59,650 bases of DNA from contig PLNS01000027.1 in NCBI GenBank assembly GCA_003141855.1, positions 160,473 to 220,122 on the forward strand, in the 5' to 3' direction. A program made the translations under genes and the position numbers. The first letter of the stretch is position 1; every line of letters begins with the position of its first letter. The notes under the pieces were generated by a model, which had not been told where the DNA came from, did no database searches, and worked only from the letters and a program-made list of their open reading frames with translations. Source of the stretch: Candidatus Bathyarchaeota archaeon (GTDB taxonomy: Archaea > Thermoproteota > Bathyarchaeia > Bathyarchaeales > Bathycorpusculaceae). Shown here piece by piece: positions 23,587-27,173 of this stretch.

Positions 23587-23640
23587 AATATAACTTACAA
23601 TAGGAAGTGCATACTTACGGGAACATCCCAAACATTTACG

Positions 23641-24789
23641 ATAAAGTACGTTGTACACGCTAGATTTGAAATTGAAGGTGTAGTTGAAAAACCCGACGTT
23701 ATCGGCGCAGTTTTCGGTCAAACAGAAGGACTTTTCGGCCCCGAACTTGACCTACGAGAACTCCAAAAAACAGGGCGCATCGGCAGAATCGAAATCGACT
23801 TACACTCCAAAAACGACCGAACCACAGGTTCCATAACCATCCCAACCAGCTTAGACCGCGTTTCTACAGCCCTCATCGCAGCAAGCGTCGAGAGCATAAA
23901 CCGCGTTGGACCCTGCTCAGCTAAAGTTAGCCTAGACAAAATCGAGGACATCCGCGAAGCACGACGAAAAATAATCATCGACCGAGCCAAAGAAATCCTC
24001 CACAGATGGAACATCGAATCCATGCCCAGCGTAGATGAAGTTTACAAAGAAATCTCTGACACCATGAAAGTGGGCAAAGTAGAAAAGTACGGACCTGAAG
24101 ACTTGCCAGCTGGACCAGGACTGGAAAGCGCTAAAGAAATCATCGTTGTTGAAGGTCGCGCCGACATCATTAATTTGATGCGTTGCGGTATCTTTAACAC
24201 TGTCGCCCTCGAAGGCGCAAAAGTTCCTGACTCGATAAAGAAGATTACAAAAGAAAAATCAGCCACTGCATTGCTTGATGGCGACCGAGGCGGCGACTTA
24301 ATCTTAAAAGAGCTTTTGCAGGTAACAAACGTAAAGTTTGTTGGTCGTGCTCCAAGAGGCAAAGAAATCGAGGAATGCAACTGCAAAGAAGTCGCCGAAG
24401 CCATAGAAAACAAGTTACCAATAGCTGAAGCTGCAGGCGTAAGCAAGCCAACCCCGGCTCCTAAAAAGGTGCCTGAACGAGTCAAAGTTGAAGTCCCAGA
24501 CACCATAAGTCAAGCGGCAAAAGCGTTGGTTGGTACACTCGAAGCAGTCCTACTCAACGACAAACTCGAATTAATCGAGCGGTTACCAGTAAGCCAGCTT
24601 GCAGAGAAACTCTCGCAGGTAACTGGCGTTGACACAGTGGTTTTCGACGGCATCATCACCCAGAGAATCGTTGACATCTCAGCCGACAAGAGCATAAAAC
24701 GAATCGTTGCCTCACGCATCTCTGAAGCGGTTAAGCCTGCGTTGAACGTTGAATTGATAACGTTCCAAAACGCTATTCCTCCAGCCTAA
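23641..24789 (+). CDS. dnaG: Archaeal DnaG primase-like protein (no canonical start codon)
   Basis: The frame encodes about 383 residues. The N-terminal archaeal DnaG region reads KYVVHARFEIEGVVEKPDV, GAVFGQTEGLFGPELDLREL and GRIGRIEIDLHSKN. The central Toprim domain shows IIVVEGRADIINLMRCG (catalytic Glu) and ALLDGDRGGDLI (DxD). In archaea DnaG acts mainly with the exosome as an RNA-binding subunit, and possibly as a primase. The frame is open from 23587, but no ATG, GTG or TTG occurs between that point and the first conserved residues; the first ATG (24022) would delete about 125 conserved residues. I place the start at ATA 23641 by alignment; ATA 23611, preceded by AGGAAG, is another option. 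A GTG at 23607 is in another frame, so a one-base indel is also possible. The gene overlaps polB by four bases, tail to tail. Confidence 0.88.
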   Translation: MKYVVHARFEIEGVVEKPDVIGAVFGQTEGLFGPELDLRELQKTGRIGRIEIDLHSKNDRTTGSITIPTSLDRVSTALIAASVESINRVGPCSAKVSLDKIEDIREARRKIIIDRAKEILHRWNIESMPSVDEVYKEISDTMKVGKVEKYGPEDLPAGPGLESAKEIIVVEGRADIINLMRCGIFNTVALEGAKVPDSIKKITKEKSATALLDGDRGGDLILKELLQVTNVKFVGRAPRGKEIEECNCKEVAEAIENKLPIAEAAGVSKPTPAPKKVPERVKVEVPDTISQAAKALVGTLEAVLLNDKLELIERLPVSQLAEKLSQVTGVDTVVFDGIITQRIVDISADKSIKRIVASRISEAVKPALNVELITFQNAIPPA

Positions 24790-27173
24790 ACATAATCCAT
24801 TAGGCTTCTAATTTCTTCTGTTTCTTTTGTCTCTTTTAGCAGTTCAGCCTCGGTTACGTCGAAAAACACAAGGATTCTCGTTGCTGCAGGCAGCACCTGA
24901 TTGGTTACGTAGTAATCGACGTCTACTTCATCGTATTTTACGAAAACGTAAGGTTTCACTCGGTTGTACAAGCGCCCTTTTCCTTCAAGGATTATGTAGC
25001 CTACTTTGTCGCCGCCAGTTAAACGCCAGCCTTTTTCCTTGAGCATTTTTGCCGCCTCCACATGCGGTGCTCTGATGGCGTAATCCTCAGGAGCTTTTGT
25101 GAGGGTTTTCCAAATAATGAGGTCATGCAAAGGAACTTTTCTATGTTTTAAGTCAGCAATAACGGAACGCACGTACTCGATTGCTTTCTTAGGAGACTGC
25201 TCGTTGAGGATTATTTCGAGAACGTGCTCTTGCACTTTTTTGGCAACTTCTGCCCAGTCACCGCGGATAACTTCCAAGCCCACGATGTCGAGGCTGCCGT
25301 CCTGCCGTAAGCCCGCATAGCGTTTTTTGGCTTCCGTGAAGAAAATGCGCTTGTAAACTTCGCCGACTTCCACGTCTAACTTTAGTTCGTGCTTGATTTC
25401 TTCTTCCAACTTCGGAACCTTGGTTTCATCGTAATTTATGAACAGGCTGTCAGTGTCCCCGTAAACCACCACTATTCCAGCCCGCTCAGCCATCTGCGTA
25501 GACGTCAAAATTATGTGCCTACCCCAAGCTGAAGCTGCTTCAGCGACGGGTTTAATATACCATCTTGCGCCCACCCAGCCAGCATAGCCGTAAGCAGCGT
25601 TTGTTATGATTTTGACTGCTTTTTGGCGTGCATCCAGAACGTGGTATTCGACGGTTTTGGGGTTGAGGGTTTTCATTTTTTGGCGTATGGTGTTTCTTAC
25701 GTTGATTAGGTATGTGAGTGCTTCTTTGTAGAATCCTGGTGGGGTTTTGCGGAATTTGTGTTTTACTTCGGGTGCTTCGTAGACGCCGCTTGCTGGTTCT
25801 GGCTCGTCGGGTGCGATGTAGGTGTCTGGTGAGAGGTTGTAGGTTATCATGATGTTGGGGTACATGGACTTGAAGTCTAAAACGGCAATGTTCTCATGCA
25901 AGCCAGGCTTGGGAGAAAGCACAAGCCCGCCAGCGTAAGGCCTGTAAGGTTGCTCGATTCGTTTAGGGATGAGTTCACCGATTTTCTGGGCTTGCTTGAT
26001 AAGGAACCATTCAACGCGGAAGCCCACAGCCGCCGTCATCACGTGGTCCAGGGGTAGGCTTGTTAGGCTGGCAAGTTGCATGGCAAAATCCAAAAGCAAC
26101 ACTGCGGTGCCCTGTACTTTGCAGGCGCTATCCAACCCGAAACGCTTTAAATCGCTGCGTTTTTGCTTGTCATCCCAGTAATCCGCAAACTCAACATCCT
26201 CAACGATGCTCTGCTTGTCTTTCATTACGCCTAAATGGTCCGCAAAATTCCAAAGCGTTTTCACTTTAACCTCGGGGAACACATCCATGAAATCTGCCAA
26301 GTCAATGTTCACGGTGCCTGTGGTTGAAACGTGCCCGTAAACGCTGGTGTGGGGTTCCAAGCGAGCTCTGTCAAAGTCCAGTTTCAATTTTAACTTGTGG
26401 CTCCTGCCCTTGAGGTAAGTCCAATCTACCGTGTTGGCGCCGTAGCTTGCGATGATGTCGGGGTCAAACTGGCAAATGTAATTGATGAATCCTTCGATGA
26501 CGGGTTTGTCGTCTTTGTCGTCGTTTGCTATGAACTGTTTCTCTTCGCCGTTGCTGGCCGCAGTTGAAATGATTAGCACCGGGTTGCGGTCTGGTTTGGG
26601 TGAGCCCTCGCGGCTGTAGCAAATCATTGAGAAACCCAGAACCCTCAACGACGGCACAACCACATTGTCCAGCTGTTTGGGCTGCGCTTTTGCAGCATAA
26701 ACCTTGGATACTCTTACGCCTTCAGTGTTCTCTTCTTCGGTTGCTTCTACCTCATGCCACCCGCAGGGAACCACATTATTGTCGATTAGGTAGCGCATGG
26801 AGGCGCGAATGTCGTCTTCGAGGCAGTCTTTTACTCCTTCGACGCTTCGAAGTTGCTTTGCAAGCTTCCCTGTTTCGGTTGCCACCTTGCAGTAGACTTT
26901 TATTGCTTGCACGGGTTTGCCGAAGAAGCGTCTCTGGGTAACTTCCACCTTCACAATTGACGAGGCGTAAGCGTTCATGATTGCCTCTGCAGTCTTCGAC
27001 GCATCAAACCCTTCAGCCACCACGGCATAGAAGTAAGCAGTAAAGTTGCGGTCAATAACGAGGACCCGATTGCCAGCTGCATCGATGCCCCAAAGCCACA
27101 ACTCAACCGTGCCCTTGTCTTTATCGATTTTAGGGTTAATGTCTAGAAGCCAAAAAGTAACTTTCACAAGCAA
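24786..27173 (-). CDS. polB: Family B DNA polymerase with degenerate 3'-5' exonuclease motifs
   Basis: This 795-residue polymerase has intact synthesis motifs: A with D433 in LDFKSMYPN, B around KIITNAAYGYAGW (about 521-533), and C as YGDTDS (571-576) with D573 and D575. The exonuclease domain is present (about 175-370), but Exo I reads GFSMICYS (180-187) where FDIE is expected, so both acidic residues are replaced (S182, I184). Exo III reads FGLDSA (345-350) instead of YxxxD, losing Tyr and the catalytic Asp (S349). Exo II keeps D250 in NTVDW. Proofreading is therefore probably lost while polymerisation is kept. It ends tail to tail with dnaG. It may be the main or an accessory polymerase; this window cannot tell. 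Confidence 0.93.
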   Translation of the reverse strand: MLVKVTFWLLDINPKIDKDKGTVELWLWGIDAAGNRVLVIDRNFTAYFYAVVAEGFDASKTAEAIMNAYASSIVKVEVTQRRFFGKPVQAIKVYCKVATETGKLAKQLRSVEGVKDCLEDDIRASMRYLIDNNVVPCGWHEVEATEEENTEGVRVSKVYAAKAQPKQLDNVVVPSLRVLGFSMICYSREGSPKPDRNPVLIISTAASNGEEKQFIANDDKDDKPVIEGFINYICQFDPDIIASYGANTVDWTYLKGRSHKLKLKLDFDRARLEPHTSVYGHVSTTGTVNIDLADFMDVFPEVKVKTLWNFADHLGVMKDKQSIVEDVEFADYWDDKQKRSDLKRFGLDSACKVQGTAVLLLDFAMQLASLTSLPLDHVMTAAVGFRVEWFLIKQAQKIGELIPKRIEQPYRPYAGGLVLSPKPGLHENIAVLDFKSMYPNIMITYNLSPDTYIAPDEPEPASGVYEAPEVKHKFRKTPPGFYKEALTYLINVRNTIRQKMKTLNPKTVEYHVLDARQKAVKIITNAAYGYAGWVGARWYIKPVAEAASAWGRHIILTSTQMAERAGIVVVYGDTDSLFINYDETKVPKLEEEIKHELKLDVEVGEVYKRIFFTEAKKRYAGLRQDGSLDIVGLEVIRGDWAEVAKKVQEHVLEIILNEQSPKKAIEYVRSVIADLKHRKVPLHDLIIWKTLTKAPEDYAIRAPHVEAAKMLKEKGWRLTGGDKVGYIILEGKGRLYNRVKPYVFVKYDEVDVDYYVTNQVLPAATRILVFFDVTEAELLKETKETEEIRSLMDYV

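Follow-up and report, generated by a model that had tools for sequence, protein, structure and literature searches.

The PolB3 locus and its exonuclease site

The window (the whole stretch of 59,650 nucleotides that was analyzed) carries a family B DNA polymerase gene and, convergent with it, an archaeal dnaG gene. The features of this locus are collected in Table 1. The polymerase gene had originally been described as otherwise undamaged, and its reading frame was indeed found to be open over the coordinates given in the table, with TTG as the start codon. Pfam analysis of the product returned the domains DNA_pol_B_exo1 (5.9e-20) and DNA_pol_B (5.2e-65). The closest solved relative, which was the top match both by sequence and by fold, is 5mdn, the PolB3 of Pyrobaculum calidifontis (phmmer, E-value 7e-213). 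An AlphaFold model of the window polymerase has a mean pLDDT of 88, and its Foldseek comparison with 5mdn gave TM values of 0.88/0.92. The two proteins are homologous over their whole length and have the polymerase motifs in common.

Table 1. Positions of the genes and motifs at the PolB3 locus, numbered along the window.
Feature	Position	Strand	Remarks
Archaeal dnaG, convergent neighbor	23617..24789	+	Start codon probably ACG; synteny with PolB3 ancestral
PolB3-type family B DNA polymerase, 795 aa	24786..27173	-	Exonuclease site lost, polymerase site intact
C-terminal tail IRSLMDYV	24789..24812	-	Resembles a PCNA-binding box
Polymerase motif C VVYGDTDSLF	25440..25469	-	Residues 569-578, intact
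Polymerase motif A VLDFKSMYPNI	25851..25883	-	Residues 431-441, intact
Exo III remnant LKRFGLDSACK	26118..26150	-	Residues 342-352; Tyr replaced by F345, Asp by S349
Exo II ASYGANTVDWTYL	26412..26450	-	Residues 242-254; D250 retained, G245 in place of Asn
Exo I remnant LGFSMICYS	26613..26639	-	Residues 179-187; Asp replaced by S182, Glu by I184

All three polymerase motifs, A, B, and C, are intact in the window polymerase, as stated in the original prediction and as borne out by the alignment and by the relatives. In the phmmer alignment to 5mdn, the Exo I segment LGFSMICYS stands opposite LAFDIEVYN (S182 at the Asp and I184 at the Glu), the Exo II segment ASYGANTVDWTYL opposite VGYNSNGFDWPYL (G245 at the Asn and D250 at the Asp), and the Exo III segment LKRFGLDSACK opposite LMRYVLDDVRS (F345 at the Tyr and S349 at the Asp). 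While 5mdn has all four catalytic exonuclease acids, three of the four are gone in the window protein, where the positions read S, I, D, and S, and the Asn of Exo II and the Tyr of Exo III are lost as well. The five residues named beforehand (S182, I184, D250, F345, and S349) were all right according to this alignment, and the change of the Exo II Asn to Gly can be added to the list. The loss of the acids is not a sequencing accident, since the same state was found in relatives at 88–39% identity. Judged by its residues, the window PolB3 would have no exonuclease activity.

The exonuclease-dead state among relatives

The lost proofreading site extends beyond one gene, across a whole archaeal branch. 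Among 29 homologues of the same genus, family, or order, both Exo I acids are missing wherever Exo I is readable (one fragmentary row does not include it), and they are likewise missing in 38 out of 38 further stretches from the class (three of them fragments), many of which represent deep lineages. Exonuclease-dead PolB3 was read in 20 of the 23 families of the window's class, the other three having yielded no full PolB3. Among 80 named loci (the best 80 of the 299 confirmed in the scan), 14 were exonuclease-intact and 66 were dead or, in the case of one fragment, unreadable at Exo I. By record name, the intact loci belong to Thermoprotei, Thermoproteota, Desulfurococcales, Pyrodictiaceae, Thermofilum, or Baldrarchaeota, and the 66 others mostly to 'Candidatus Bathyarchaeota' and Hecatellales. 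A set of 30 rows from the phylum comprised 16 intact and 13 dead PolB3 proteins and one protein (L204) that is apparently another PolB and has the acids.

Altogether 178 proteins were pooled, and 133 distinct PolB3 proteins remained after the removal of duplicates and of ten partial or odd rows (L034, L091, L093, L133, L144, L145, L154, L155, L156, and L204). Four exonuclease acids are present in 27 of them, three in none, two in one (L202), one in 80, and none at all in 25. The polymerase residues Asp433, Asp573, and Asp575 are retained in 133 out of 133, one of which has a masked residue. The gap between four acids and one is the pattern expected from a single old inactivation followed by drift. 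Outside the 133 stand L204, which is 27% identical, and 20 further rows, of which 12 are intact, five are dead like the main branch (one of these partial), and three, all from family f35, are partly decayed.

A tree was calculated by a quick method for 100 of the 133 rows (at <82% identity), the rows being PolB3 only. As it was built from polymerase-domain columns alone, the exonuclease trait cannot shape it. On this tree, in which row L198 has a very long branch, 73 of the 74 exonuclease-dead rows fall on one side of a single branch with an SH-aLRT of 100, and the exonuclease state needs two changes, whereas shuffled labels need 23 on average. The dead branch takes in every PolB3 read in the window's class together with other families of the phylum. 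This distribution suggests that the PolB3 exonuclease site was inactivated once, long ago, in a large branch of the Thermoproteota. The only dead row outside the main branch, L202, lies inside the exonuclease-intact group and is a second, separate loss.

L202 belongs to family f48, is isolated, and has two acids left, with Exo I intact and the acids of Exo II and Exo III lost. Family f35 resembles the window protein in that some of its catalytic acids are replaced, but its decay is separate and partial and was seen in three of the seven rows read (L210, L211, and L215, from three genomes). L210 shows decay of the polymerase motifs too, and L211 is truncated. One PolB3 (L145, G052:C157:21302-25200) has about 447 extra in-frame residues near polymerase motif B, probably an intein. 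One genome (G126; 86% complete, 4% contamination) contains two diverged PolB3 copies, L137 and L138, both exonuclease-dead, for which a mixed bin is possible.

Constraint, neighboring genes, and other polymerases

Both domains of the exonuclease-dead PolB3 are under purifying selection. By a simple counting method, and with high dS in several pairs, dN/dS was 0.08–0.23 for the exonuclease domain in 11 out of 12 pairs of relatives, the twelfth being saturated, and 0.04–0.20 for the polymerase domain in all 12. The latter values, together with the conserved motifs A, B, and C, agree with the original view that selection keeps polymerization. The dead exonuclease domain is predicted by the structural model to be still folded. 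At 50–60% polymerase identity, the identity of the exonuclease domain is 40% among dead rows versus 53% among intact ones, so the constraint on the dead domain is weaker but real; its faster evolution in the dead branch also fits a slow decay. In this comparison of 104 dead with 27 intact rows, from which L198 and L202 were left out, the columns that separate dead from intact PolB3 within residues 150–370 are chiefly the catalytic ones. Acids or other residues that are fixed in the intact group have been lost or exchanged in the dead group at columns 182, 184, 187 (Asn to Ser), 197 (Asp to Asn or Asp), 245, and 349.

Among the loci with at least 1400 bases downstream, a convergent dnaG lies within 600 bases in 48 of the 61 dead and in 5 of the 14 intact loci, and in five of the other nine intact loci it is convergent at a distance of a little over a kilobase. 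One study reports the convergent dnaG–PolB3 pair in most crenarchaea (PMC4104785). Given this synteny, the dead protein is best regarded as the orthologue of PolB3 rather than as an extra paralogue. The window polymerase is itself an archaeal PolB3 orthologue. The upstream VWA and AAA genes were considered as partners and rejected, as they recur in none of the 80 loci.

A truncated dnaG (255 aa from the first ATG) was also considered and rejected, as permitting a start codon other than ATG gives a complete gene. No ATG, GTG, or TTG is found in frame at the start of dnaG in the window and in loci L037-L082 and L093. At 23617-23619 (+) there is an ACG codon where the relatives L065, L071, and L072 have ATG. 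In a survey of 59 loci, this ACG was invariant in the 32 loci with an aligned anchor, and no other Thr codon ever took its place, in contrast to the Thr codons nearby, which vary; 24 loci were unanchored or different, four of these with ACG by eye. Many loci have a Shine-Dalgarno-like AGGAGG ahead of the ACG, and in some a TTG or GTG lies in frame three codons before it. The codon patterns indicate that ACG is probably a conserved start codon of dnaG.

The genome of the window (2.39 Mb, 96% complete) encodes a PolB1 with complete Exo motifs, and PolB1 is exonuclease-intact in 30 out of 30 genus members read (32 matched). PolD is present as DP2 and DP1, and in DP1 the metal-binding motifs, as we take them to be, read intact; DP2 was found in 178 of the 189 class genomes. 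The genome also carries two PolB2-type polymerases (G000:C17:47883-50186 and G000:C26:5713-7980), which are 63% identical and both have HGIVDS, with one Asp, as motif C. The second polymerase (PolD or PolB) for which a search had been proposed was thus found in the form of PolB1, two PolB2-like genes, and the two PolD subunits. Proofreading by another protein, as had been suggested, could come from PolB1 or from PolD with its intact-looking DP1.

PolB3 is present in 105 and absent from 84 of the 189 class genomes, which are drafts at least 80% complete, so that some absences are gaps; many of the absences are in genomes more than 90% complete. A genome was scored as positive when its match outdid the PolB1 cross-match by a wide margin, and large fragments were counted as present. 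Inside the genus, the presence of PolB3 needs at least four changes on the PolB1 tree. Short PolB3 remnants with stop codons and no full PolB3 were seen in G024:C54 (region L150) and G049:C1 (region L151). The absences in the class, the changes inside the genus, and the stop-codon remnant of G024 indicate that PolB3 is dispensable. No association between PolB3 and PolB2 was found over the 189 genomes of the class (p 0.77). PolB2 was rejected as a functional partner, as a link seen in the genus (10/15 versus 1/16, p 6e-4) was gone under tree control and class-wide.

Possible roles of the exonuclease-dead PolB3

We consider it rather probable that the protein is an accessory, PCNA-recruited, non-proofreading repair PolB3 that lost its exonuclease site once in a large branch of the Thermoproteota, its activity being deduced from residues. 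Such an enzyme would copy DNA without proofreading and would not be the main replicase. Recruitment may go through its C-terminal PCNA box, and the work would be patch synthesis during repair, the filling of gaps, or extension beyond damaged sites, tasks for which an idling exonuclease would be an obstacle. Correction of its errors would fall to PolD, PolB1, or other repair. The dead domain may survive as a scaffold that holds template and primer beside the palm. A loose PCNA-box pattern is present at the tail in 63 of the 75 dead and 14 of the 14 intact rows with an available C-terminus, and we presume that this tail is a PCNA-interacting box. According to PMC8100216, PolB3 is non-essential in Sulfolobus islandicus, and deleting it alters the survival of DNA damage; a repair role is therefore the obvious place to start. 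No conserved DNA-repair gene was found beside PolB3, which counts against its being a repair polymerase. The original prediction had offered a specialized non-proofreading polymerase or proofreading by another protein, and both are supported as far as sequence can tell. Beyond that prediction, the loss is old and clade-wide and PolB3 itself has often been discarded.

A dedicated translesion extender, which would act like an archaeal Pol zeta together with PolB2 or a Y-family polymerase, seems doubtful. A dead exonuclease beside a live polymerase is the Pol zeta pattern, as described in PMC7544198, and the window's genome contains two PolB2-like genes and Y-family matches in the form of two fragments. 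However, PolB2 shows no class-wide link, Y-family matches occur in only 112 of the 189 class genomes, and no operon is shared. It is also unlikely that the protein is still replicative in the manner of Pol alpha, extending primers or making part of the lagging strand while PolD or PolB1 remove the errors. This role should be harder to lose than the absence of PolB3 from 84 of the 189 class genomes implies, and neither a primase fusion nor a primase operon was seen, although the PCNA-box-like tail is kept, other proofreaders are present, and dnaG is the neighbor. The argument from dnaG is qualified by the finding, in PMC4227792, that archaeal DnaG is an exosome subunit.

The repeated complete loss of PolB3, the stop-codon remnants in G024 and G049, and the lack of PolB3 in Thaumarchaeota (PMC4104785) would fit a relic on its way out, with the exonuclease lost first and the entire gene later. 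We regard this as quite unlikely, as the gene is open and conserved where present, the polymerase aspartates are kept in all 133 proteins (one masked), dN/dS is well below 1, and the dead state occurs across 20 of the class's families. An exonuclease that still works through D250 and acids recruited from other positions is highly improbable. D250 is retained in most of the branch, and columns 268, 326, and 362 have become acidic in the dead group, but none of these three occupies a catalytic position of the alignment (362 lies 13 residues farther on in the Exo III helix), and all four acids are missing in 25 of the 133 rows. Acids at equivalent positions nearby, named in the original prediction as evidence against it, did not appear at any catalytic position in these column counts.

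The accessory, non-proofreading repair PolB3 that we favor would join other exonuclease-dead B-family polymerases, for which Pol alpha, Pol zeta, and PolB2 are named in PMC7544198. Archaeal PolB2 (Dpo2) is likewise an archaeal B-family enzyme with a lost exonuclease site, but the same source gives it a single Asp in motif C, whereas DTD is intact in the window PolB3. Eukaryotic Pol alpha and Pol zeta also combine an inactivated exonuclease domain with a live polymerase (same source), and the window PolB3 would do so by its residues. The loss in PolB3 took place in another lineage, and no partner subunits are known for it. The catalytic subunits of eukaryotic Pol alpha and Pol zeta have a zinc-binding C-terminal domain, while the window protein stops soon after its polymerase domain and lacks such an extension. 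The literature searched contained no mention of an exonuclease-dead PolB3, nor of an entire archaeal class in which PolB3 is regularly exonuclease-dead with its polymerase intact.

Tentatively, and as a possibility that we would not put at even chances, a single ancient loss in the common ancestor of Bathyarchaeia and several other Thermoproteota lineages may have converted a polymerase of the replication type into an archaeal equivalent of Pol zeta or Pol alpha, freed from fidelity, and may have been the first step to the complete loss of PolB3 in Thaumarchaeota and many Bathyarchaeia. The clade-wide loss suggests that PolB3 is not relied on there for accurate bulk replication, and it means that B-family polymerases with a dead exonuclease have one more independent origin, alongside Pol alpha, Pol zeta, and PolB2. 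As the proofreading site only was lost, and clade-wide, it is a natural experiment, and the dead branch may be a source of natural exonuclease-free polymerases.
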